Source: Pseudomonadota bacterium (GTDB lineage: Bacteria; Bdellovibrionota_C; UBA2361; OMIW01). Taken from it: a stretch of 54,890 nucleotides of DNA. Each line of letters begins with the position of its first letter. Position 1 is the stretch's first letter. Positions 16,484-45,300 of this stretch are shown piece after piece. A program made the position numbers and the translations under genes. The notes beneath the pieces were generated by a model. That model was not told the DNA's origin. It ran no database searches and saw only the letters and a list, made by a program, of their open reading frames with translations. Where the stretch lies: assembly GCA_900299205.1 (NCBI GenBank), contig OMIW01000142.1:1-54890 (forward strand), read 5' to 3'.

Positions 16484-17047
16484 TTATACCGCCGAAAACG
16501 GCAACAACCCAAGGTTCTGAGCTCGCTTGATAGCCTTCGATACCTTACGTTGATTATAAGCATTGAGGCCCGTTAGTCTTCGCGAAAGAATTCGCCCTCG
16601 CTCACTCAAAAAGCGGGAGAGGGTAGCAACATCGCGGTAATCAATCACAGCCTTAGGATCTTCGAGGAAGGGGTCAACCTTTCGCCGACGCTTGAACAGC
16701 TGCATTCGCTGAATTGGTGGAAGCGGCTCGTAACGACGCCCTTCCCCCTCACCACTCGGGGCCCCCTGCGCCGACCCTGGCGCTCCCGGTGCTCCCGCTC
16801 CCTTACCTCGATCCTCTACGACCTTCATCGGCCGTCCGTTCACCACCTTCCCATTTAACGCCTGAATCGCGGCTTTTGCGGCGTCCTCGCTCTCCATCTC
16901 GACAAAAGCAAACCCCTTCGAGCGCTTTGTTTCGCGATCTGTCGCAATGACGACACTGAGAGTAGGTGCCGCTGCGGCGAACAGCTCCCGAAGTTCATCG
17001 TTGGTGATGTCAAAATCAAGGTTACTGATAAATAATTTTTTCCGCAT
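16484..17047 (-). CDS. Fusion protein: N-terminal RRM domain + C-terminal ribosomal protein bS18
   Basis: RNP2 LFISNL and RNP1 KGFAFVEM; linker GKGAGAPGAPGSAQGAPSGEGEG; C-terminal IDYRDVATLSRFLSERGRILSRRLTGLNAYNQRKVSKAIKRAQNLGLLPF (S18 core). Confidence 0.9.
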   Translation of the reverse strand: MRKKLFISNLDFDITNDELRELFAAAAPTLSVVIATDRETKRSKGFAFVEMESEDAAKAAIQALNGKVVNGRPMKVVEDRGKGAGAPGAPGSAQGAPSGEGEGRRYEPLPPIQRMQLFKRRRKVDPFLEDPKAVIDYRDVATLSRFLSERGRILSRRLTGLNAYNQRKVSKAIKRAQNLGLLPFSAV

Positions 17048-22206: not shown

Positions 22207-23520
22207 CTAGGAAATACCCTCTTTCTGCATACGCTCAAGTACGGCGTGCTCGAGAACTTTTTGATAGTTATGTTCTGAGAGATGTGGCCTGATCTTGGCA
22301 AGGGATGCAGTAACCTCACGCTCAATATCCAGCCTCGTCCTGCGTGATATTGGTGCCGCAGAAACGAGCTTCGGCATGCGCTTTGGAATCGAGAATGTTT
22401 GATAATTCTCAACAGCTCTGTATAAGAAACCAACTGGACTTCGATTCACCAAATGGCTGCCAGAAGATACGAGAGCATCGTAGTAAGCGATAATTTGTTC
22501 AATTCGGGAGACAGAATCCGGAGATTTGCCCTCCAGTAATTTGATGGCTTGGCGCTCCTTTAAACCACGAGCAACCAGGGACATCACAACCTTTTTTGTA
22601 TCAATTTTTTTGGCTTCCAGCACCCTTGATCGCGTGAGCTTTAGATTCTCAGAGAGCTGAGGCTCCTTTCTGGGCGCTTCCTGAGAAATTACACGGGTGC
22701 CTCGCTTTGCAATCACCGTCAACCGTGTGTCAGCTCCCCTACCCGAATAGGAAAATTGCTCGATGAATCCTTGTTCGCACAGCTCGGTCAAGGCTGGATC
22801 AAGTTGTTGTCGTAATGAGCTGGCAAATCGATAATTTCGAGATATACCCAGCTTTTCATGTGATAAGGTGAAAAGGTTAATTTCAAGACACGTTCGGTAC
22901 CAGAAGTGTTTATCCAGGAATCGATATAGACGCTTCGAAACAGCGGAGCGTAGGGAGAGGTAGAAGTCGAGGTCCAGTTTTTTGATAAACCCGACCTGGA
23001 AAGATTTGAAAATTGTTTCACTCCAGGTGAAGTAGCTCGATTTTAGATCGGCATCGCGAGAGGTATTTATCTCATATGCGTCTATCAGTCCGAAGACCTT
23101 AGTGCTGTGACATTTCGCATCATTGTCAAAAAAAGCATTGGTAGCTTTGATCCTAAGACCCGCCAATCGGTCGAGCGCTTTCTGAAGACGGCTATAGCTT
23201 CGTCCCTCCGTACTCCACCGAAGAGTTCGTAGAAGCTCATACCTCGTAAAGTGCACTTTACGAGTTTGAATTCCATCATCGACGGTCAGTTTGAGAAGAC
23301 CGAGCAAAACTTCGTCGTCCGAGGATGTTGGGAGTCCAAATTTGTCTGCACCCGTGATGAGCCATTTCCGTTCGATGAGATCTCCGTTCTTTGTTCTTAT
23401 GGAATCGTTGAATTCGAGAGTCTTCAGGTTTGGGTTAGCTCGTGTTGAGAGAACCGTAAGCGGAAACTCAGCGAGATTCATTTCATCTCGGGATACGATC
23501 CGGCGCGGTAGTTCGTCCAT
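22207..23520 (-). CDS. Plasmid-type replication initiator protein A (RepA/RPA family)
   Basis: LPRRIVSRDEMNLAEFPLTVLSTRANPNLKTLEFND...HFTRYELLRTLRWSTEGRSYSRLQKALDRLAGLRIKATNAF...SETIFKSFQVGFIKKLDLDFYLSLRSAVSKRLYRFLDKHFWYR: winged-helix initiator pattern; tandem 22-bp repeats immediately upstream. Confidence 0.85.
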   Translation of the reverse strand: MDELPRRIVSRDEMNLAEFPLTVLSTRANPNLKTLEFNDSIRTKNGDLIERKWLITGADKFGLPTSSDDEVLLGLLKLTVDDGIQTRKVHFTRYELLRTLRWSTEGRSYSRLQKALDRLAGLRIKATNAFFDNDAKCHSTKVFGLIDAYEINTSRDADLKSSYFTWSETIFKSFQVGFIKKLDLDFYLSLRSAVSKRLYRFLDKHFWYRTCLEINLFTLSHEKLGISRNYRFASSLRQQLDPALTELCEQGFIEQFSYSGRGADTRLTVIAKRGTRVISQEAPRKEPQLSENLKLTRSRVLEAKKIDTKKVVMSLVARGLKERQAIKLLEGKSPDSVSRIEQIIAYYDALVSSGSHLVNRSPVGFLYRAVENYQTFSIPKRMPKLVSAAPISRRTRLDIEREVTASLAKIRPHLSEHNYQKVLEHAVLERMQKEGIS

Positions 23521-23681
23521 GGTGATTCAGAAGAAGAATAACCCAAATAATCGGGGAGGGACTTCCCTTGCAGAGTACTGACTTTTAGTAAGTTAAACAA
23601 TCAAGATTTTTCTTTACTAATTATGTTGTGAGCGGATAAATAGATTAAGGAATACAGGTAGTTAGGTGAGTATATTTACTT

Positions 23682-23814
23682 GAGATCACGAGAAAAAATC
23701 TTTCAATTCACGAGGGTCTTTACGGAGGTGCACGATAGGATTTTTTTCGATTCACGAAGGTTCTTTTTCCGATACCCGAGATGATTTTTTTCGAATTCAC
23801 GACCCTTAGCTGAA
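23682..23814. repeat. Six tandem ~22-bp iterons (candidate replication origin)
   Basis: Units at 23682, 23704, 23726, 23748, 23770, 23793: gagatcacga.., caattcacga.., aggtgcacga.., cgattcacga.., cgatacccga.., gaattcacga..; each core followed by a 12-13-nt spacer, T-rich in most units. Confidence 0.85.
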
Positions 23815-23930
23815 AGGCTCGTGTAAGGAAATAATTCGTTTGGGACATAGAAACCGCCATTTGGGGACAGGATTTATAGGGAAGCACGATATTCAACGTG
23901 TACTGACATAAGAAAGGGGAAGGAAGGGTA

Positions 23931-24094
23931 TCGTGAATTGATAAAAAGTCGTATAAGAAGCCGCTCGAACAAATTGTTGATGGGCCGTGCTCACGAACAT
24001 TCATTCTCTGAAGTTTTATTCGTGATTGAGTTTCTGTGAGCTAAGGAAAGAAGCAGCGGTGTTTAGGTAGTCTCATTATTATATCAATTCACGG
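23931..24094. promoter_or_regulatory. Dispersed iteron-core copies upstream of parA (two inverted, one direct)
   Basis: tcgtgaattg 23931-23940 (inverse of caattcacga), tcgtgattga 24020-24029, caattcacgg 24085-24094 just before the parA ATG at 24102. Confidence 0.55.
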
Positions 24095-24101
24095 TAGGTG
24101 T

Positions 24102-24896
24102 ATGGCGCTCATACTGGGGGTAGTTAATCAGAAGGGAGGGGTCGGAAAGACCACCACGAGTGTTAACTTGGGTGCAGCTTTGGCTGCGCAGCGAAAGAGA
24201 GTTCTTCTCGTTGATATCGATGCACAGGCAAATGCCTCGACTCACTTGGGGATTGCAACGGGGGATGAGGAAGAGACGGCCGAGAGTGGCTTAGAGAGGC
24301 AAGTTCCAGATTTTACGAGCTATGACCTTCTTAAGGGAACAAAAAATGTTCATGAAGTAGCAATAAAAAGGTCTGAAAATCTGGAAATTGTCCCCTCGAG
24401 TCTTCTTCTGAGCGCTGCGGACCTGGAGTTGGGAGGGGTGGTTGGCAGGGAACTTCTTCTAAAGAGGGCGCTGAGCAAGGTTACGGGTGATTATGATGTG
24501 ATCATAATCGACTGTCCACCCGCATTGGGGTTGCTCTCTCTCAATGCCCTAGCTGCTGTTCAGAAAGTTATAGTCCCCGTTCAGAGCGAGTATTTGGCTC
24601 TGCACGGGGTGCGTCAGCTTCTTGATACTATCGATCAAGTTCGTGCGATTTATAATCCAGATCTTGTCGTTGGAGGAGTTCTCATCTGTCTTCATGATTC
24701 GCGGAGAAGACTCGCCCGAGCGGTTGCGGAAACAATCCATTCTTACTTCGGGGATCTTGTTTTCAAGACGGTTATTCGTACTAACGTGGCCCTCGCAGAG
24801 GCACCTGCGCACGGAAAAACTATCTTTGAGTATGCGGAGAAATCCTCGGGAGCCGAAGATTACGCGTCACTGGCGATGGAGGTGATGAATGAGTAA
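24102..24896 (+). CDS. parA: Chromosome partitioning ATPase ParA/Soj
   Basis: VNQKGGVGKTTTSVNLGAALA, VLLVDIDAQANASTHLG, IIDCPPALGLLSLNAL; no N-terminal HTH (chromosomal-type). Confidence 0.95.
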   Translation: MALILGVVNQKGGVGKTTTSVNLGAALAAQRKRVLLVDIDAQANASTHLGIATGDEEETAESGLERQVPDFTSYDLLKGTKNVHEVAIKRSENLEIVPSSLLLSAADLELGGVVGRELLLKRALSKVTGDYDVIIIDCPPALGLLSLNALAAVQKVIVPVQSEYLALHGVRQLLDTIDQVRAIYNPDLVVGGVLICLHDSRRRLARAVAETIHSYFGDLVFKTVIRTNVALAEAPAHGKTIFEYAEKSSGAEDYASLAMEVMNE

Positions 24897-25803
24897 GCGA
24901 AAATTGATATTGGCAAATAACCCACTTCTGAGTGGTCCGGCGCTTCGAGACAGGCACGATTCAAATGCGGCTCCTCAGTTGACGCCATCTCAGCAGGGAC
25001 CCTTTCGAGAAATTCCGATTGAATTGATCGATCCCGATCCCGAACAGCCTCGAAGTGTTTTCGATGAGGATCAATTGGAGGAGTTGACGCAGTCAATTCA
25101 ACGCTATGGCGTTTTGAGTCCTCTCCTTGTCCGTCCGAGTAGAATTGCTGGTCGATACCTTGTTGTCGCTGGAGAACGCCGACTTCGGGCTTCGACACAA
25201 GCGGGACTCGCTAGTGTACCGGCGATTATTGACAGGAGTTTAGATGGTGATAAAGAGCGGACACTCGCCATTCAGCTTGTTGAGAATCTGCAAAGAGCCG
25301 ATCTTTCCCCCTTGGAGCGAGCCCAGGCGATGGGGATGCTGAGAGATTCATTCGGACTGTCGATTCGAGATATTGCGGAGCGGCTGGGAGTCTCGAAAAG
25401 CCTGGTCCATCGAAGTCTCGATCTTTTAGCGCTCCCCCCTGACTTAATCGTTGCGCTGCAAAATGGGGCATCTGAGTCGAAGATTCTTCTGCTGTCAAAG
25501 ATTGATGACGAGGATTTACGGGCGACGTACCTTCGGGAGATCGAGGAGATTACTCGAAGTGACATTGAGGCTCACCTAAAAGGCCGGTCGGCGCGAACTA
25601 CGACACCGGAGACTCGAGACTCGAAGGATGAGGTAATTGACCCGGAAGATCGTCGAATAGCCGATGAGATCCAACGGGCGGTTGGAGTACGAGTTCGACT
25701 TCAGAGAGAAGGTCGAAATAGCAATCGGGGGCGCCTCGTCCTTGAGTTCTATTCGGAGGACGATCTTCAGGAGATATTCCGGAAGTTAGTGAATGACAAC
25801 TAA
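24889..25803 (+). CDS. parB: ParB/Spo0J partition protein
   Basis: REIPIELIDPDPEQPRSVFDEDQLEELTQSIQRYGVLSPLLV, VVAGERRLRAS, HTH DIAERLGVSKSLVHRSLDLLALP. Overlaps parA by 8 bp. Confidence 0.95.
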   Translation: MSKRKLILANNPLLSGPALRDRHDSNAAPQLTPSQQGPFREIPIELIDPDPEQPRSVFDEDQLEELTQSIQRYGVLSPLLVRPSRIAGRYLVVAGERRLRASTQAGLASVPAIIDRSLDGDKERTLAIQLVENLQRADLSPLERAQAMGMLRDSFGLSIRDIAERLGVSKSLVHRSLDLLALPPDLIVALQNGASESKILLLSKIDDEDLRATYLREIEEITRSDIEAHLKGRSARTTTPETRDSKDEVIDPEDRRIADEIQRAVGVRVRLQREGRNSNRGRLVLEFYSEDDLQEIFRKLVNDN

Positions 25804-25813
25804 GAGGGTTGGC

Positions 25814-25850
25814 GACCTCGAAGTGTCCCACGGTGGGACGCTTCGAGGTC
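25814..25850. promoter_or_regulatory. Composite palindrome: 10-bp outer arms around GTCCCAC-G-GTGGGAC (parS-like candidate and/or parB terminator stem)
   Basis: gacctcgaag t gtcccacggtgggac g cttcgaggtc, directly after the parB stop. Confidence 0.6.
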
Positions 25851-25917
25851 TTAAGTTAAGATCTCATTCTCACACGAAAGGTGATCGTGAGATGATATAA
25901 GCAGCTCGGGAAATACC

Positions 25918-25932
25918 GTCCCACGGTGGGAC
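25918..25932. promoter_or_regulatory. Second identical palindrome GTCCCACGGTGGGAC (parS-like candidate)
   Basis: Exact copy of the 15-bp core at 25825-25839, 93 bp away. Confidence 0.5.
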
Positions 25933-26255: not shown

Positions 26256-27056
26256 ATGATAGGAGCCGTCAGTTCAAGGGTTCAATTTGATAATTGGTTT
26301 AAGGGGGTTTTCGAGCAGCGTTGGGGGTCTAGTGTGTTGGGGGATGTGGTTGGTTACGCCTTATTTCCGGGCGGGAAAAGACTTCGCGCTCTTCTTTCTG
26401 TTGCGGTTTGCGAAGATCTGGGCGGGGATTCTGGAGATGCGATGTGGGGTGCTGCGGCGATTGAGTGTCTCCATATCGCCTCATTGATTCATGATGATCT
26501 TCCATGTCTGGATAATGATGTGCTGAGGAGAGGCCAGCCCACGTGTCATGTGCAGTTTAGTGAGTCGGCCGCTTTACTCGCAGGGGACGCTCTCATAAGT
26601 TGGGCCTTTGAGCTGGGACTGGCGAGCCCGACGGGGTCTGAAGCTATCTGTCGGATTCTGTCTGTCGCGTTCTCGGCCCTTTGTCGTGGACAATACCTTG
26701 AAGTTGCCCAAGACAAGTTGAGGGAACTCGACTCCACCAGGGCGGTATCGAGCGACGAGGTCGCAAAATTGAAGACGGGAGCGTTATTTGCCGGCTCGTT
26801 ACAAGTTGGGGCAATTGCATCAGGAATAGACGAGGGGGCTTTGTTGGCAATGCTCGGCAATCTTGGGGAAGGGTTTGGAGTTCTTTTTCAAGCAAAGGAT
26901 GACCGTGACGATGGAGACAGACTCCTTGTGTCGGAAGTTTGCCGTTCGAGCCCTCGAAACGAACTAGACGGGCTATTTACGTCAGCTCACGACATCTCAG
27001 TTCGGAACTTCAAAAGTACCTATCGGGTAATGATGAAAGCACTGGATTTGAGCTGA
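26256..27056 (+). CDS. Polyprenyl synthetase (geranyl/farnesyl diphosphate synthase family)
   Basis: FPGGKRLRALLSVA, SLIHDDLPCLDNDVLRRGQPTCH (first Asp-rich motif), GVLFQAKDDRDD (second). Confidence 0.88.
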   Translation: MIGAVSSRVQFDNWFKGVFEQRWGSSVLGDVVGYALFPGGKRLRALLSVAVCEDLGGDSGDAMWGAAAIECLHIASLIHDDLPCLDNDVLRRGQPTCHVQFSESAALLAGDALISWAFELGLASPTGSEAICRILSVAFSALCRGQYLEVAQDKLRELDSTRAVSSDEVAKLKTGALFAGSLQVGAIASGIDEGALLAMLGNLGEGFGVLFQAKDDRDDGDRLLVSEVCRSSPRNELDGLFTSAHDISVRNFKSTYRVMMKALDLS

Positions 27057-27157
27057 TTGACGAATTTGTCGTGCAATCGGGTAAGTGTGAGGAAGAAGTG
27101 CGAGAGAAGGTCGATTTTGAGGGGGCAATTACCTCGAGATCTCGCGAGCTAGCCATT

Positions 27158-29913: not shown

Positions 29914-32900
29914 ATGAAGGTAGCTCGCCTCGAAGTATTTGGATTCAAGTCATTCATGGAGCGTCTCGTGCTCCCTCTCGAATCGGGTTTCACTGGGGTG
30001 GTTGGTCCTAATGGTTGCGGTAAATCTAACGTCGTGGATGCGCTTCGGTGGGTTTTAGGTGAGACGAGAGCGAGTCAGCTTCGCGGTGGGACCCTTGAAG
30101 ATGTTATCTTCAACGGAACTGATTCTCTCCGACCACTGGGTCTCGCTGAGGTAACAATCACCCTACGAGCCGATGGAGCAGCAATTCTTGATGATATCAT
30201 TTCACCGCGGGCAGAAGCTGAGCTTGTAGCCAGTGGTGAGCTGGAAGATGAGATTGGGCGTCCTCATTTAAGAGTTATTCAAGGGGGAGTCTCGGGCGGT
30301 GAACGGCTTGAAGCTGAGCCGGTCAGGAATGAGGAGAAAAGTGCAACTGATGACAGTTGTGAGGAGGTTTCGGGTGCGGGGGAGCGGGAGGTCGAATCCG
30401 GGGAAGAAGAGGGTACTGATGAAACGGACGAGTATCAATCCAATAAAGAAAGTGGCAGCTCAGTCCCGCAGCGTCGATCAGTGTCCCTCATATCCCGATT
30501 TCAGTGGCTGTCATCGGTAAGTGAGGTTCAGGTAACGCGTCGACTCTATCGGAGTGGTGAGTCTGAATTTTTCATCAATAAGGTCGCGTGTCGTCTCAAA
30601 GATCTTAAAGATTTTTTTCGAGCTATCGGTTTAGGTGCTCGGGCTTACACGATAGTCGCTCAGGGTGAGGTTGGCCGAATTGTTACTGCCAAGCCGACCG
30701 ACCGTCGCCAGATACTTGAGGAGGCGGCGGGAGTAGTTGGTTTTCGGGACAAGATCGCAGAAGCGACTCGTCGACTTGCCGATACGAGCCAGAATATCCT
30801 TAGATTACAAGATGTCATCGGGGAATTGGAGCGACAGGTGGCCGTACTGAAGCGGCAAGCCGCTCGTGCAAGAGCAAGGCAAGAGATCAAGGAAGAGCTG
30901 ACGGCTGGTGAGCGAACACTTTTTCTTGACTCGTTCGTTGCCCTTCAAGAGCGTGAAGGAGAAATAGTGAGAGCTCATGAGCTCGGCCGGGAAGCTGAAC
31001 AGGTCGTTGGGGAGCGCTTTGCAGAGATCGCAGCAGCCGAAGGGGCAGCGCGCGCAGAAATTGAGGAGATTGAGGTAAGGATTGATGAGGTACGAGGGCG
31101 TCTCGAGCGACTGAGGGAAGAATCTCGTCGAAGGGAGCGAACATTAACCGAGCGAAGGGCGAAACAGGAGGAGCTTCGAAAGTTAATTCAATCCACCAGT
31201 AATGAGATTCTCAGGCTTCGTGAGCGGATAGATGTTCTACAAGAGCGAAGAAAAAAATCATCAACCCAGATCGAGGAATTACAGCGGCAGGATCAGGAAT
31301 TGGGAGAGCAGGCACACGATGGTGATGATGGGGGAGCCAGTGACATCGATGATTTGGCTGGTGAACTTGAAGTCGCAAGAGAGGGGCTGGTTATTATTGA
31401 ATCGAGTTTGCGTGAAGTAAGGGACGCATTCATTGCGAAAGAGAGTAGCCTGGCAGCGATGCGAGAACAGATAGTCGCAGCCTCTCCCTCGAATCAACTT
31501 TCGAGTGTATTCGGGGCGGAGCTGGCTGCTCAATCAGCTGATGCCGTTCGGTTGCTTGTGGACGAGATGCATATCCCAGAGCGTCTTGCAAAAGCAGCGC
31601 AAGCAATTATCGCCGAGAGAGCGCGGTATTTGTTGGTTTCAGACCCATGGTTAGTCGCGCGGAAATTTTCCGATCGGCTCCGCACCGATCCCGGAGAGGT
31701 GGCCGGGATACTTGGCGTTTACAGGGCTGGCTTTGAACCTCGCTCCACTAGTTCTGTTGGCAATTATGAAATTCCGTTTCCCGCGCTTATCACTCTTCTG
31801 TCGGTATCTCAGGCCGCAGAGGGAATCGTTAGCGAGTTGTTGCGAGACGTGGTGGTTGCCGATTCGCTGGAAGCAGCGCTCGATTTTTTTCAAGCGAACC
31901 AAATAAATGATTCTACCGTTGATTGTACGGTGGTGACCCTCGATGGCGAAATAGTCACGAAACAGAGCTTCGTCAGTTCTCGGGGTAATAGTGGGCTGAT
32001 TGAGCTGCGCGGGCGTGAATTATCTCTCTCGAATGAGACCTCAAATCTTGCTAGTGCACAGGATAATTTGATTAATGAGCGTATTTCTCAGCTGAAACGC
32101 ATTAGTGCTTTGGAGGTACGACACGCTGAATGCTTGCGAATTGCGAGAGAGCGTCAACGGATACTACGAGAGTTAGGGCTACAGCAGGGAAACATCAGGG
32201 GATTACTTCAGGCTGAGCGGGCAATTTGCGAGCAAATTGGCCAAGATTTTGCGCGAGCACAGGAACAGGTCGAGGAACTCCAGTCGCATTTGGATGATCT
32301 CCGTTATGAAGCTGCAACCGTTGAGGAGGATGTAGAGGCTCTCGAGGTGCTTGTGGCAGATTCGGATGACTCTGATGGTGAGGAACTAGTGGGAGAATTG
32401 GCGATTGCGGAGCGCAGTCGGAGAGAGCGTCGCGAATATCTTCAGAATTTGTCGGAGGAGCTCCTCACGGTTCGCGCAGAGCTCGATAGGACGAGGGCGG
32501 CAAATGTCCGTTTTGAACTCGAAGCGCAGAAAATCATGGTTGAGCTTCAGAGTCTTAGTGAGAGATTCGTCGCAGATCAGGGGAGTGAAGTATTTCATGA
32601 ACTGGTCGCTTCAGATGTATCGATTCAGCGGCTTGAAGTCGAGGAAAAGAATCTTCTTCAGCAACGGGTTAACCAACTCCGGAACCGTTTGGTTCGTGAG
32701 GGGGAAGTTGATCCAGGCTCTATTGAGCAGTACGAGAGCGAGCGGGACCGACTTGCTGGATTTATTCAGCAGCGGGACGATCTGGAGCGTGCGGCCACAA
32801 CTCTTCGAGAGAGTGTCCAGCGGTTGACAGTGACCTCCGAAGAGCGATTCCTGTCGACATTCCATGCTGTTCGGAAGAATTTCGGTCGACTAGTGCCGTC

Positions 32901-33312
32901 GCTTTTTGGTGGTGGGGCTGCTGACCTTTCACTCTCTGATCCCTCTCGCCCTCTTGATAGTGGGGTTGAGATAGCGGTGCGACCTCCCGGAAAAAAATTG
33001 AAGAGTATCGACCTCATGTCAGGGGGCGAAAAGGCTCTTTGTGCGACGGCCCTGATTTTCGCGATGTTTCTCGAGCGCCCAAGCCCTTTGTGTGTTCTCG
33101 ATGAGGTAGATGCTCCTCTCGATGAAGCGAATCTTCAGCGGTTTTTGAGGGTAATTAGAGAAATGAGCGCGAGCACTCAATTTCTTATGATTACTCACAA
33201 TAAAGCCTCTATGGCAGCGGCAGATACTCTCGTTGGAGTGACGATGCCTACTCCAGGGGCTTCTAAAATGATAACGGTTTCTCTCCAGGAGGCGGTAGCC
33301 CATGGTGATTGA
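29914..33312 (+). CDS. smc: Chromosome segregation protein SMC with ~100-aa acidic insertion in N-terminal head
   Basis: FTGVVGPNGCGKSNVVDALRWVLGE; VTRRLYRSGESEFFINKVACRLKDLKDFF; LMSGGEKALCATALIFAMFLERPSPLCVLDEVDAPLDEAN. Confidence 0.96.
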   Translation: MKVARLEVFGFKSFMERLVLPLESGFTGVVGPNGCGKSNVVDALRWVLGETRASQLRGGTLEDVIFNGTDSLRPLGLAEVTITLRADGAAILDDIISPRAEAELVASGELEDEIGRPHLRVIQGGVSGGERLEAEPVRNEEKSATDDSCEEVSGAGEREVESGEEEGTDETDEYQSNKESGSSVPQRRSVSLISRFQWLSSVSEVQVTRRLYRSGESEFFINKVACRLKDLKDFFRAIGLGARAYTIVAQGEVGRIVTAKPTDRRQILEEAAGVVGFRDKIAEATRRLADTSQNILRLQDVIGELERQVAVLKRQAARARARQEIKEELTAGERTLFLDSFVALQEREGEIVRAHELGREAEQVVGERFAEIAAAEGAARAEIEEIEVRIDEVRGRLERLREESRRRERTLTERRAKQEELRKLIQSTSNEILRLRERIDVLQERRKKSSTQIEELQRQDQELGEQAHDGDDGGASDIDDLAGELEVAREGLVIIESSLREVRDAFIAKESSLAAMREQIVAASPSNQLSSVFGAELAAQSADAVRLLVDEMHIPERLAKAAQAIIAERARYLLVSDPWLVARKFSDRLRTDPGEVAGILGVYRAGFEPRSTSSVGNYEIPFPALITLLSVSQAAEGIVSELLRDVVVADSLEAALDFFQANQINDSTVDCTVVTLDGEIVTKQSFVSSRGNSGLIELRGRELSLSNETSNLASAQDNLINERISQLKRISALEVRHAECLRIARERQRILRELGLQQGNIRGLLQAERAICEQIGQDFARAQEQVEELQSHLDDLRYEAATVEEDVEALEVLVADSDDSDGEELVGELAIAERSRRERREYLQNLSEELLTVRAELDRTRAANVRFELEAQKIMVELQSLSERFVADQGSEVFHELVASDVSIQRLEVEEKNLLQQRVNQLRNRLVREGEVDPGSIEQYESERDRLAGFIQQRDDLERAATTLRESVQRLTVTSEERFLSTFHAVRKNFGRLVPSLFGGGAADLSLSDPSRPLDSGVEIAVRPPGKKLKSIDLMSGGEKALCATALIFAMFLERPSPLCVLDEVDAPLDEANLQRFLRVIREMSASTQFLMITHNKASMAAADTLVGVTMPTPGASKMITVSLQEAVAHGD

Positions 33313-34759
33313 CGAGGGATTTCTGCCGAGCTTAATCAACGGAGCGGTCGTTTATGAAGGGGCATCGCTCGCACAGCCGCTCATGACTCCGCATATTTTG
33401 GGGCTCAGTCGAGAGAATCTCGCGGTGATTGTCGCCGTTTTTTCAGTTGTAGGAGTCATATTATTCGTGATGTCTCTTTTCCGAGGTGCTGCAACCGCAG
33501 ATGTTGTCGGACAACGAGGGGACGACATTGATGATCCGATCGAACGGCTCGGTCTACTTGAACGGAAGGTTCAACGGCTGAGTGAACGCGTCGATGCAAT
33601 TGATGAGCGGGTTAAGAAAGTTGGCTCCTCAGAAAACCTTTCGGTAGCGTCGCCCTCATCGAGCAGGCTCTCAGAGGGAAACCGTACCAAGCCCGAAGCC
33701 CCTCCTCAAAGCTCGGCCTCGAAAGATACCCCCTCTCAAAATGAGACGAAACACCGTGGTACGAGGTTGGACCTTGCCAGATTTGCGGAGAAGATTGTAT
33801 CCGGTGCTCAGGGATCTGTTCTCGATCAGCGCTTTGGACCCTCCCGACAATCCATCCTTAGCAAAATCAAATCGGTATTGCGTTCCTCGGAGACGATTGA
33901 TGCCGATATGCTTGAGGAAATAGAGGTACTACTGGTGACCAGCGATCTGGGCCTCAAAATGGCGCAAGCACTTTCCCGGGACCTAAAGGAGGTGCTTCGT
34001 TCAGGTGGGCTCGTGTCAAGAGAAAGGCTCTTTGCTCACCTTCATAAACAGCTTCTTGCCCTTCTCTCTGAGCCTCGGTTAATGGCTCCAGAATTTAATC
34101 CATCGAAGACTTCACCAGGTTGCCCCAAGGTGGTGGTCGTGGTGGGTGTCAATGGAGTAGGAAAGACGACGACGGTAGCGAAGCTGGCGCAACTTTGGTC
34201 TTCGAGGGGGGCTAAAGTCGTTTTGGGGGCAGCTGATACGTTTCGCGCGGCTGCCGATGAGCAGCTCCGTGAGTGGGGAAATCGAATCGGCGTGGAGGTT
34301 ATCGCAGGGGTTCCTGAAGATAAACCATCGACAGTTGCCCATGCGGCTGTTGAGGCGGGAAGGAATCAGGGGGCAGATGTTGTGATCATTGATACAGCGG
34401 GACGCCTGCACAACAGGGGTAGTTTAATGCAGGAGCTTGAGGGAATGTTGCGTGCGGTAAAGAAAGCTCAACCCCAATCGCCCGAGGAGATTTGGTTGGT
34501 ACTTGATGGTACGACAGGGCAGAATGCGTTAGCTCAGGCTCGGGAATTTCAATCCTCCGTCTCACTGACTGGAGTTATTGTAACGAAGCTCGATGGCACT
34601 GCGAAGGGAGGTGTCGCAGTAGGGATTTCTCACGAGTTAGGTATCCCGGTCCGTTTTATCGGTATAGGGGAATCCTGGCAGGATCTTCGTCCTTTTAATC
34701 CAAAGGAATTTGTCACCGCATTGCTCGGAGACGGTTCGGTACAGAGCAATTCGGTCTAG
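33302..34759 (+). CDS. ftsY: Signal recognition particle receptor FtsY with N-terminal TM segment
   Basis: VVVVGVNGVGKTTTVAKLA, LGAADTFRAAADEQL, VIIDTAGRLHNRGSLMQEL, VTKLDGTAKGGVAVGI; hydrophobic LAVIVAVFSVVGVILFVMSLF near N-terminus. Confidence 0.95.
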   Translation: MVIDEGFLPSLINGAVVYEGASLAQPLMTPHILGLSRENLAVIVAVFSVVGVILFVMSLFRGAATADVVGQRGDDIDDPIERLGLLERKVQRLSERVDAIDERVKKVGSSENLSVASPSSSRLSEGNRTKPEAPPQSSASKDTPSQNETKHRGTRLDLARFAEKIVSGAQGSVLDQRFGPSRQSILSKIKSVLRSSETIDADMLEEIEVLLVTSDLGLKMAQALSRDLKEVLRSGGLVSRERLFAHLHKQLLALLSEPRLMAPEFNPSKTSPGCPKVVVVVGVNGVGKTTTVAKLAQLWSSRGAKVVLGAADTFRAAADEQLREWGNRIGVEVIAGVPEDKPSTVAHAAVEAGRNQGADVVIIDTAGRLHNRGSLMQELEGMLRAVKKAQPQSPEEIWLVLDGTTGQNALAQAREFQSSVSLTGVIVTKLDGTAKGGVAVGISHELGIPVRFIGIGESWQDLRPFNPKEFVTALLGDGSVQSNSV

Positions 34760-39384: not shown

Positions 39385-42300
39385 CTAAAGCCCCTTTTTG
39401 TCAGATTTTTGGGTTGATCGTCGCTTTTTAGCGCCGAGAACGGCAACAACGGCGATATCTCCCGAAAAATCACCGAGTCGAATGGTGTTTCCAGTCATCT
39501 GGGTTCCGTTGACCGAAATTGAGCCAATACCCGACTCAACCCCGGAGGGATTCTCAAATCTGATTTGGATCTTGCGTGGTGAATGAAGCTCTACGCTCCA
39601 CTCTCGCCACACCGCCGGAACACATGGATTGATGACGAGGGTATCACGTTGGAGAGAAATGCCAAGGAGGTGATGTATGGCTGCTTGATAAAGCCAACCA
39701 GCAGAGCCGGTATACCAACTCCAACCTGCTCGTCCTTTGTGGGGCTCAACACCGTAGACATCGCCACATAGGACGTACGGTTCGCCCTGGTAAACGTGGA
39801 CTCCTTCGGAGGTCGCTCCATGGGTGATAGGATTGAGCATTTGGAAGAGCTCGAATGCACGGCTACCATTCCCCGCCAGTGCTTGGGCGATGACAACCCA
39901 AGTGGCAGCATGAGTGTATTGCCCACCATTTTCCCGAATCCCACGGAGATACCCCTTGATAAAGCCAGGCTCAGATCTTCCGGAGAAAAAGGGCGGAGTA
40001 AGAAGCTTAATTATCCGTGCTGAAGTATCGACAAGATGCTCATCGACACTTGCCATCGCCATCATCGCCCGCTTTGTATCTCCCGTTCCAACGATAACGC
40101 TCCATGTCTGAGCCAGAGAATCTATCTGGCATTCGTCATTTTCGGCGCTTCCGAGAGGAATTCCTTCATCATCGTAGGCACGCCGATACCACTGACCATC
40201 CCAAGAAGTGTTCTCGATAGAAGAAACTAACTCAGATGCTCGTCGAGAAAATTCTTCCGATCTCTCGTCGCCGCGAGCTTCCGCGATCGGTGAAAAGATC
40301 GAGAAGGTATGGGCAAGAAACCATCCGAGCCACACACTTTCGCCCCGACCCTTACTGCCGACCTCGTTCATTCCATCGTTCCAGTCTCCGGCTCCCATCA
40401 GGGGCAATCCACGAGAACCCAGCCGATATGCGCGCTCTAACGCACGGATGCAGTGTTCGTAAAGAGTTCCTCGTTCTGCTGAGACCGAGGGAATAAGGTA
40501 GCTCTCATCCGAATCGCCAAGCGGCGGCGCTTCGAGGAACTGGATCACTTCATCAAGTATCGCGGTGTCACCAGTTACTTCGAGATATCGGGCAACTGCG
40601 TAAGGTAGCCATACGAGGTCATCGGTTATTTTTGTGCGAACTCCACGACCCGTCGGAGGATGCCACCAATGCTGAACATCTCCCTCAATAAACTGTCTCC
40701 CTGCATGAAGGAGAATCTGTGCCCGGACCATTTCGGGACGAACAAGAAGTAGAGCCAGTGAATCCTGAAGTTGATCCCGAAAGCCGAAAGCTCCACCACT
40801 CTGATAAAATCCCGTACGGGCAAAGAGTCGGCACCCAATAGTTTGATAGAGCAGCCAACCGTTTACAAGAATATCAAAGCTTCGTTCAGGAGTTTTAACC
40901 TGGATCGCCGATAGTGTGCTGTCCCACCAATGGTTCGCCACTTCGCGATCATGACTATACGTTTCATGTTGTCGGTAGTGTGGAGCCGTGGAGCGAAGCC
41001 CTTCGATAGAATCACATTCGCCGAGGAAGAAAAGAGCTGTTCGTTCTTCACCTGGCTCGAGATTGAGGTGCACCTTAATAACTCCGCACGGGACAAAACC
41101 TGATCCGACTCGTTGCGATAACTGGACGAGGTTTCGCCGATTGGTTCGCTGACTTGAAGAACGCTGGGACCCAGCCGATTCAAGACTTAATGGATTGCTG
41201 ACATCTCGGTCCCGACCAATAAACTCAAGCTTGTCGGTTGTGAATGAAATGATGCTGAGGTTTGAACCTAGAAAGACCACTTTGCCGGCAAACTCATTGT
41301 TGTAACGGTTTACCGCAGTAAGAACCTGTGCACCTGGCTCGTATGCCGTGGAGAGATGTCTTTGAGCTTCTTCGGGTGCTATTCCAAGGACCCAATCAAC
41401 GTATAGATATAACTCAAGTCGTCGCTGAACCACATCCTCATTCCTCAATCTCAGCGACCACCATTTGACTGGCGAATCGGAAGCAACCCGGATGGTAAGT
41501 TCTGAAGAGATGGCTATGTGATTTGCCTGAAATAGGCTTTCTCCGAATCGATGAGTTACGATTGTCTTCGAATCACGGGACACAGGACCGGGCGTCGGAC
41601 ACCATACATGACCACTTTCGGTATCGCGAATATACAGTACCTCGCCCGCCGGGTCGCTCACTGGATCGTTCGACCACGGGGAAAGACGATTCTCCCGGCT
41701 GTTCTGCGCCCAGGTGTAACCGCCTCCCGACTCAGTCACTAAGGTTCCGAATCTCCTGTTTGCGAGAACATTACTCCACGGCAGAGGAGGCGTAGATGAT
41801 TGGGAGACGATCAGCTGATATCCTCGCCCCTCTTCGACGAAGGAGCCGTAACCGTTTTCGAACTCACCACTCTTCGGCTGCAAGGTGACCCGCGGATATT
41901 CCATCTGTCGACTGAGATCGAGCATCCCGGGAGCGAGAGGAGGAGTAATTGCAAAGAGCTGATCGAGCTTAAGCTGCTCTTCAAGCGATCCATCAGCTCC
42001 GGAGAAGACAGCACGGGAAACGGCTTCCAGAAGAGTCAGTTCTTCATTCGAGAGTTGCGATGCGGCACGAAGGAAAATGCCACCATTTTTATCGAGCATA
42101 CCAGAGCTCGGGGTCGATCGGATGATGTGTTGCACCTCCTCCTGAAGCTCCTGAAAGTAGCCCCCCGGATACTCGTTAACAATGACGAGATCCGAAGAAA
42201 TACCCCTCGCTCTGAGGTACGCATGGCCGAGGATAATTTCCCGAGCCAGTTTAAGGTGGCCTCCGTCGTAAATTTTAAGAAGGAGTATCGGTAGATCCCC

Positions 42301-45300
42301 GGAAATCCCAAATCTCCAAAGTGCTGATTGTTGAAGATGATTGCGAGTAATCAGCTCCGCCGAACCTCTCAAATGCTCAACAGGAAAGAGAATGGCGGTA
42401 CCGAGCGCTTGGAAGAGGTGGGTCTGGCGAGCAGTGTATTGCTCATTGCGAAGCTCAATACGGCTCTGACTCCACGCCAGTTCAAAGGCACGGGTAATGC
42501 TGTGGAAATCGCGGTATTTGCTGGTGAGATGCTGGAGGACCTCAGGAGAACGCGCTACTCCCGTGATAAAAGATAATGCATGAGATTCAGTGGGATCGAG
42601 CTCGACCCGCGCGCGAAGACTGAAGCAAGGGTCCAGCACACTTCCCACGGTATTTGATAGCTTCCGCTCGCCCATCGCAAAGGGATCGTGAATAGTTCGG
42701 CCTCGTCCGATAAAGGTGGGTCGTGATGTCTCGTACTGGAGCCTGTCCCATACCGTTCTCATAACAACTGAATGGAAGAGAAGAAGCGGGGCTTCGTGTC
42801 GTGACCGAGGCCGACGTGATAGGATTAAGGCATCATGCTCCTCGTCGAAAACTGATTCGACAAATAGTCGTTGAAAGGCCGGATGGGCCCGATCCGCGCG
42901 TGCGCCAACCAGAGCGACCTCTCCGAAGCTCGTAATCTCGAGATTCCGCTTTCTATCGGAAAGGTTGGTGAGGGTTAGTCGTCGAACCTCAACATTATCT
43001 TCCTGCGCGACAGTGATTTCCAGAAGGCTCAGTATTTGATTATCCCTTCGGCAGAACTCGGCTTTATCGCCCTTAAATACCACGGAATAAAGTTCGGGTT
43101 CAGCTCTGGATGGATTGTAAGTGGCTGACCAAACTTCACCTGAATCGAGGTCGCGAATGAAAAGGACTGAGCCCCACAGATTTGCAGTAAGGTCCTCTCG
43201 CCAACGGGTGATGGCGATGTCACGTTCGAAGGAAATAAATCCGCTTCCCGAATTGTCCACCATCGTGGTGAGGGTTCCGTTCGAGAGCAGATGTGTTGAT
43301 GGATATTGGGTAAAAGGCGTCGAAAAGATCCTCTCTTTTCGACTTCCCTCTCGTTCAGACTCCTTCGTCGCAAATGCGAGGGGAGATTGGCGGGGCTCAG
43401 AATGCGGTATCCGGGAGGGAAACTTCTCATGCAGCAAAACCTCGACCGCTTTGATGATTGGATCTTGATGAAATCGCTCCTGGAAAACCCCATCACAAAG
43501 GACATTCGCTATCGTCGGCAGGCTCATCCCTTGATGGTGGGCGAAAAAGGAACGCACAACGTGGAATGTCTCATCTTCCGTAAGCCGATCTTCGGTAAAA
43601 TCTATCGCCTCGTAAAATCCGTATTCTCCACGAAATCCATCTCTCTCTAGTCGACGCAGATTTTGGACGGCAGCGATTGGTCGAATGGGTAGTGCGAGAA
43701 CCGTTGAATAAGGTGAGACGACGAGGTCATTTTCTAAACCGCGCTTAAGGCCGAGGCCAGGGACTCCGAACGCGCGATACTGGTACGTCGCATTCAGATC
43801 GACGCCACTATGAGCTGACTCAGAGATGCCCCATGGAACACCACGCCGGGTTGCGTACTCCCGCTGTGTATCGATGACTCTCCGATAGGTTTGACCGAGA
43901 AGAGTTTCTGCGTAATCGCGTTGAACAACGAGAGGCATCAGGTATTCGAACATGGTGCCACTCCACGATGCGAGCGCAGCGCCCCCCGGAGTATCGACGA
44001 GTGTGCGACCGAGCGAAAACCAATGCTTCATCGGAGCATCTCCCTTGGCAATCGCTATCATACTGAGCAGTCGCGATTCCGAGGCAAGAAGGTCATAGAA
44101 GCTCCGATCTTTTCGGGCCATCTCGACGTTGAGACCGATAACAAATAAATTCTTTGATCCGTCAAAAAGAAATGAAAAATCGAGTTCCTCAAAGATATCA
44201 GTACAGGCTTGCTTAGTTTTATCGACGACGATTTTTAGATCACCAAGTATGGTGGCTGAACGTCGCGCTGCGCTTAGCCACGGCTCATGACCGAGGTCAC
44301 CTTGGCTAGAATCCTTGGGTAGGGCAGTTGCTGCTCCGAGGGAAAGGGCCATCGCAAGAATTGAAGAAGGTGACGCCTCAGTTAACGCCAGGCTTGCAAC
44401 AAGCTTTCCTTCGTCGGGAGAAATCTCAGCCTGAGAGCCTCGTTCAACAAAAGGGGCAACCCATGCCACGAGCTCTCGCTGCTCGAGAAGCTGTCCGAGC
44501 TCCGCGATTTCTGCAAATATCTCTTTTAGCGCATTCCGCCTGCCTGAATCCGACTCATCAGGACCATCCGAGCTACATACCCCAGAAATCGCTGAGATAA
44601 TCTCAACAAAAAGCTGCACGGTAAGTCGATCATAATTCGTGTAATTGGCAAGGACCGCCTGAATGGGCTCAATTGTATCGCTAAGGTGAGATTTCTCTTG
44701 CAGAAGAGCTGTCAGACGGGCAATCAGGTGGTGGATAAATGAGGGTTTGATGATGGGGCCTCGCCATAGAGCATCGAGAGAAGTTCGTATCGCAAGGAGG
44801 TGACCGGCAAAATTGCCGCTATCAACGGAGGAGACGTAACGAGGGTGGAGCGGAGCCAGGGTCCTGATATCGTACCAGTTGAGTAAATGACCATTGTACC
44901 GCTCAAGTTTGGGCAAGGTTTCGAAAATCTTCGATAGAAGGACGAGTACTGTCCTACTATCCTCGTAACCGAGCTCATAGGCGGACACCGCGCTCATCAT
45001 CGAGAGGCTAATGTTAGTTGGGGAGGTGCGCTCTGCCACAACTCGCTGAGGTGTTTGCTGCAGATTATCTGGGATGAGGTAATGATATGCAGGACGAAGG
45101 TGGTCTTTGAAATATCTCCACGTTTGATACCCCACTGAGAGCAGATAGCCACGATCCTCGGGAGAGAGACCAGATGTCGGGGGCTGGGGGCGGGCTGCAA
45201 GGAGGGTTGCTGCTACCGGAGATAGAAACCAGATCGCGATAAGTGGCAGGGCGGCCGAGAGTCGGTCAGGAGCGGATACTGAGACGAGTATCGCTGTGAA

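Follow-up and report, generated by a model that had tools for sequence, protein, structure and literature searches.

Does an array of iterons beside a plasmid-type repA gene mark the origin of a plasmid, or that of a second chromosome? The question is raised by contig OMIW01000142.1 of genome G000, a stretch of 54,890 nt with a GC content of 51.5% (the window). It belongs to an uncultured class known from MAGs alone. Those of its MAGs that have names carry labels such as Deltaproteobacteria, Oligoflexia and Bdellovibrionales; one of those used below, UBA2409 (G002), is placed by NCBI under unclassified Deltaproteobacteria. Our class sample comprised 47 genomes, all of them fragmented MAGs, and we found no closed genome among these 47. 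Twenty-one are called good here, with a completeness of at least 90% and a contamination of at most 5%. In the open-access literature we found no mention of UBA2409 and no paper describing a second origin or chromosome in this class.

RepA-type sites between repA and parA

The proposed replication origin is the intergenic region between repA and parA (23521..24101), which contains 11 RepA-type sites and has an equivalent iteron gap in 23 relatives. The original prediction described six repeat units in this gap, beginning at 23682, 23704, 23726, 23748, 23770 and 23793 with spacings of 22, 22, 22, 22 and 23 bp, and all six cores are indeed found there. We trained a position weight matrix on the corresponding gaps of the 23 relatives, leaving the window out. 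Scanning the window with it recovered exactly these six units, with CACGA/CCCGA cores at 23687, 23709, 23731, 23753, 23775 and 23798 and scores of 12.9-20.0 bits. Tandem Repeats Finder also picked up the array (23731-23802, period 22), which we delimit at 23682..23802 on the forward strand. The anatomy of the unit had to be redrawn: in place of a conserved half with a T-rich spacer, a bipartite unit made up of a TTA/TC half and a CACGA half describes it better. This bipartite unit has the consensus TTAtnTC-AAtt-CACGA-TA and the core pattern TTAt.TC....CACGA.

RepA-type sites are spread across the whole gap, beyond the six-unit array, a feature that the original prediction had missed. Three of the five sites added by the matrix are inverted, at 23816..23840 (core 23819, 13.7 bits), 23893..23917 (core 23896, 18.3 bits) and 23928..23952 (TCGTGAATTGATAAAAA, core 23931, 17.5 bits), and the last of these forms inverted pairs of 17-20 nt with units of the array. 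The two others are direct, at 23868..23892 (core 23885, 11.3 bits) and 24073..24097 (core 24090, 14.3 bits), the latter 7 bp ahead of the parA start. At a threshold of at least 11 bits, the gap holds at least 11 sites (8 direct, 3 inverted). When the same gap was shuffled 1000 times with its dinucleotides preserved, the mean count was 0.05 and no shuffle gave more than 1. As a genomic control, we scanned 20 dnaA loci of the class, 372 kb in total, and counted 14 sites of this strength. In 19 of 24 genomes, the start of parA has a RepA-type site no more than 60 bp away, which suggests that RepA probably also acts on the expression of parAB.

An AT-rich stretch at 23580-23680, predicted to separate the array from repA, is present, with 27.7% GC as against 51.5% for the window, and contains the lowest-GC 100-mers of the entire 54.9 kb. 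With limits set at 23579..23681 (27-28% GC), it is a candidate DNA unwinding element. An alignment of 24 gaps revealed a conserved element, ACTTTTAGTAAGTTAAACAATC, at 23578..23606, which reads TTTTAGTTAGTTAAACAATC in most or much of the order and could act as an operator of repA or belong to the unwinding element. A DnaA box is common in iteron origins, though not universal. None was detected within 1 mismatch of TTATCCACA in the window gap or in 18 of the 23 others (19 of 24 gaps in total), which suggests that DnaA may not take part directly.

One could argue that these repeats are only operator sites for RepA or ParA, involved in autoregulation or incompatibility, and that replication starts elsewhere near repA. 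Such a role would fit the sites found at the parA start and those located further downstream, around 25885, 26988 and 27069, as well as the GC skew minimum of the window, which is broad (about 18-22 kb). Against it, a phased six-unit array next to the most AT-rich 100 bp of the window is the standard layout of an origin, and the gap is conserved in its entirety. We therefore consider a purely regulatory role highly improbable. An iteron origin beside the RepA gene, as originally predicted, is the best reading of the locus, given a RepA of the PF10134 family, an array that is conserved in relatives and a skew switch at the same place.

The RepA initiator and its conservation in the class

The repA gene (22207..23520, reverse strand) is transcribed away from the origin and encodes a protein of 437 aa that matches Replication initiator protein A (RPA, PF10134; 75.1 bits, E 8e-21), besides weak matches to Rep3_N and TrfA. 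A PDB search by sequence profile returned nothing relevant. The AlphaFold model of RepA (mean pLDDT 81), compared with solved structures, retrieved as its first match (5ubf, E 3.6e-8) domains 2-3 of RctB, the protein that initiates replication of Vibrio cholerae chromosome 2, followed by RepE54 on DNA. By its PF10134 domain and by a model matching both RctB and RepE54, RepA groups with the tandem winged-helix Rep proteins.

The RepA proteins of the 23 relatives are 44-58% identical to that of the window over the aligned proteins. The prediction had made conservation of the repeat phasing in relatives a point to check. In all relatives examined, the array is found at the equivalent position and with the 22-bp phase; spacings of 22 or 23 bp between direct sites account for 102 of 196 intervals in the 24 gaps and are the commonest. 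Gene order recurs as well, as SLT-repA-ori-parA-parB-FPPS. RepA is present in 42 of the 47 genomes of the class, mostly as one copy, and in all 21 good genomes. The five genomes without it are three from the same order (60-87% complete) and both members of family f14 (80% and 85%). Family f14 (G030 and G032) consists of small genomes without RepA whose DnaA_C matches are weak or atypical; they may be incomplete, or represent a branch that has lost the second origin.

Trees of RepA and DnaA for 16 genomes have an order-level split and families f4 and f11 in common. They agree in only 4 of 13 splits, against a permutation mean of 0.17, which favours vertical descent; as far as these trees tell, the RepA replicon appears to have been inherited vertically within the class. 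Outside the class, the nearest RepA proteins are those of Planctomycete plasmids (31-37% identity) and of MAGs of Verrucomicrobia and Planctomycetes. A viral origin of RepA was considered and rejected, since no relative was found among viral contigs.

Second RepA homologues, 38-41% identical to the RepA of the window, were noticed in four genomes (G014:C78, two on G006:C429, G036:C15 and G045:C245). They probably lie on plasmids and could be ancestors or competitors of ori2.

Gene content, skew and partition of the replicon

The window contig carries the only copy of thrS in its genome (7312..9180, reverse strand), which marks the replicon as essential, and thrS is likewise a single-copy gene on the repA contig in G009 and G033 (three genomes with G000). 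The genome's only copy of ftsY is also located in the window (33302..34759, forward strand); the other main match, on G000:C183, falls under the ftsY cut-off and is probably ffh. The ftsY gene is preceded by smc (29914..33312, forward strand; SMC_N 1.2e-57 and SMC hinge), which encodes the chromosome condensation ATPase, and the contig further carries rsgA, fliG and a gene for S18. A probable ffh was noted in G006. The repA contig of G002 lacks thrS, smc and ftsY. The gene content may thus vary or move, the layout may be more complex, or the contigs may simply be incomplete.

In the window, as in most relatives, the sign of the GC skew turns from minus to plus no more than a few kb from repA. 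On the 412-kb repA contig of G002 (C2), the skew minimum lies about 9 kb from repA and the skew is mostly positive over some 370 kb to its right, a masked stretch aside; only about 33 kb are available to the left, where bidirectionality is weakly supported. The repA and dnaA contigs of G002 have nearly the same composition (39.8% and 39.0% GC), as in chromids. The replicon moreover combines a plasmid-type repA and a parAB2/parS2 system with core genes found nowhere else in the genome (thrS and ftsY), both among the features by which chromids are recognised.

Members of PF10134 drive plasmids, and among named proteins those closest to this RepA, at 31-37% identity, are encoded by plasmids of Planctomycetes. 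The locus could thus be the origin of a dispensable large plasmid or megaplasmid, with core genes that are recent captures or result from mis-assembly. This explanation is difficult to reconcile with the occurrence of RepA in every good genome in a conserved gene order, with skew that runs over hundreds of kb, and with single-copy thrS on three repA contigs and a probable ffh in G006, and we regard it as very unlikely. A conventional plasmid was rejected separately, as the gap had no DNA match in PLSDB and protein matches remained below 40% identity.

In RepA-bearing genomes, dnaA is located on other contigs. The skew minimum of the 490-kb dnaA contig of G002 lies 5 kb from dnaA; in other genomes too dnaA sits at a separate skew switch, and in several it is surrounded by DnaA boxes. 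The RepA and dnaA origins never occur on one contig, the contigs of 412 and 490 kb included. The presence of essential genes on the replicon, together with a second, dnaA-type origin, turns what would otherwise be a plasmid-type origin into the probable origin of a secondary chromosome. We consider it likely that the window contains the RepA/iteron origin of an ancient secondary chromosome that is present throughout the class beside a dnaA chromosome 1.

Each origin is accompanied by its own partition system. On the RepA side, parA (24102..24896, forward strand; AAA_31 5.6e-55) encodes the partition ATPase ParA2, which is 70-75% identical to its counterparts in relatives of the same order and 48-65% identical in other orders. 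It is followed by parB (24889..25803, forward strand; ParB_N 5.8e-27, TIGR00180 8e-45), which encodes the centromere-binding protein ParB2. Two perfect palindromes GTCCCACGGTGGGAC downstream of parB, at 25825..25839 and 25918..25932, are parS2 candidates. Their pattern, GTCCCACNGTGGGAC, is confined to the repA/ParB2 contig in 14 of 19 genomes, and the parS2 site of the repA side can be written GTCCCACSGTGGGAC. A separate ParB1 is encoded on G000:C91; such a further ParB was found in 15 of the 16 genomes examined, and in G002 and G024 it is encoded on the contig that carries dnaA. Its site, parS1, reads GTTCCACGTGGAAC in 13 of 19 genomes, in none of them on the repA contig, and has the canonical form TGTTTCACGTGAAACA in three genomes. 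ParB1/parS1 and ParB2/parS2 were never found on one contig.

A genome with two initiators, two skew origins and two distinct centromere systems bears the hallmarks of a split genome, and we infer that the two origins reside on separate molecules. A single chromosome with two working origins, one of the dnaA type and one of the RepA type, could alternatively go back to the ancient fusion or integration of a chromid and have been kept class-wide. Natural chromosome fusions in Vibrio cholerae show that both origins can be active on one molecule (PMC6284228), repA has essential genes as neighbours, the two origins are not seen apart in any closed genome and a second dif was not found. Yet these Vibrio fusions are rare exceptions and not class-wide, two non-overlapping ParB/parS systems, present in nearly every genome, would be needless on one molecule, and no contig bears both origins even at 412 and 490 kb. 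We thus regard such a chromosome as unlikely; that it would combine two origins of different ancestry, both in use and kept across the class, each with its own partition system, seems no more probable. As for dif, a search with the pattern ATAANNTANATTATGT, allowing 1 mismatch, gave about as many matches as the reversed control, and palindrome scans of G002 showed no clear site.

Downstream of parB, RepA-type sites are present at 25882-25906 (15.0 bits, reverse strand, between the two parS2 candidates), 26971-26995 (18.0 bits) and 27066-27090 (14.2 bits); the first is the sole occurrence of the exact sequence CTTATNTCNNNNCACGA in the whole genome. Three similar sites are found on G002:C2 at 30189-30593. 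They could be handcuffing or regulatory sites. Short tandem repeats of GTGGAAC (GTGGAACGCCGTGGAACGGTGTGGAAC...) occur inside the gap of G024:C109 (L038) and also in that of G025 (L005). As GTGGAAC corresponds to a half-site of parS1 (GTTCCAC), some cross-talk between chromosome 1 partition and ori2 is possible.

RepA-type sites of at least 15 bits are few away from the locus (on C2, C3 and C12 of G002 and parts of the rest), and only three exact iteron matches were found off-locus in 22 genomes. One site of 15.7 bits (G002:C3:139620, L071) lies about 270 bp upstream of dnaA and is the sole site of at least 15 bits in 490 kb. At 19 other dnaA loci, no site of at least 15 bits was found within 700 bp upstream, so that one was observed overall and 0.5 expected, and the site in G002 is treated as chance. 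We rejected crtS-like RepA sites elsewhere in the genome, since off-locus matches in the sequence scanned are few and scattered and none is conserved at dnaA.

A possible mechanism and its relation to known systems

At the origin of the window, we infer RepA binding, DNA unwinding, initiation and autoregulation. The region would be an iteron-type theta origin (ori2), at which RepA monomers could bind the phased 22-bp direct repeats via two winged-helix domains, melt the neighbouring AT-rich DNA (23579-23681) and load the replisome of the host, presumably bidirectionally. RepA may limit its own activity through the sites that are inverted or scattered and through the one at the parA start, and the same sites may couple initiation to partition by ParAB2/parS2. 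The resulting secondary chromosome, with its unique essential genes, would coexist with a chromosome 1 driven by dnaA and equipped with ParAB1/parS1.

The origin type itself is already known; what is new is its taxonomic depth, encompassing a whole class, and its location. The closest layout is that of chromosomes 2 and 3 of Burkholderia cenocepacia, which likewise combine a RepA-family gene, short direct repeats (iterons) and nearby parAB and parS, and coexist with a DnaA chromosome equipped with a separate Par system (PMC4948915). The Burkholderia repeats measure 19-21 bp (PMC4948915), whereas those described here measure 22 bp and differ in sequence. The two systems also belong to unrelated lineages and differ in the conservation across an entire class and the parS2 site found here; experimental proof exists for Burkholderia only.

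Similar to ori2/RctB of Vibrio cholerae chromosome 2, the locus combines an initiator of the secondary-chromosome type with iterons, an AT-rich element and a separate parS2 (PMC6090056). In contrast, the Vibrio ori2 uses 11/12-mers instead of 22-bp units and contains a DnaA box (PMC6090056), which the window gap lacks within 1 mismatch. The RepA model aligns best to RctB domains 2-3, with only 13% identity in the structural alignment. The likeness is structural only, and the locus is not an RctB-type ori2 with 12-mer/39-mer sites and a crtS on chromosome 1. With iteron plasmids of the Rep_3/RPA/TrfA type (F RepE, RK2 TrfA and the plasmids of Isosphaeraceae), it has in common PF10134, the weak Rep3_N and TrfA matches and the resemblance to RepE54. 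Unlike these plasmids, the replicon carries single-copy essential genes and has apparently been inherited vertically with the class.

Iteron chromids have been described in beta- and gammaproteobacteria (PMC6090056), and chromids were detected in eight phyla when 36,322 complete genomes were surveyed (PMC12456017). As that survey used complete genomes, a class known only from MAGs could not be included, and for the same reason a class-wide split genome would stay hidden. If our reading is correct, this chromid would rank with the oldest stable split genomes known. It would also provide, besides Vibrio, a second deep natural experiment on the coordination of replication and segregation between two chromosomes, in more than 40 species. 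In that case, MAG-based work on the class can also mistake a portion of its core genome for plasmid sequence, or lose it during binning.

Two other genes of the window deserve mention. The product of an ORF at 39385-48240 (reverse strand), 2951 aa long, resembles a cyclic beta-glucan synthase and contains GH94, glucoamylase and glycosyltransferase domains. The gene at 16484-17047 (reverse strand) encodes a protein of 187 aa in which an N-terminal RRM is fused to ribosomal protein S18 (RRM_1 1.7e-23, S18 1.1e-22). An RNA-recognition domain on bS18 is unusual, and copies of this fusion with 55-67% identity lie near repA in four further genomes (G024, G016, G026 and G009).
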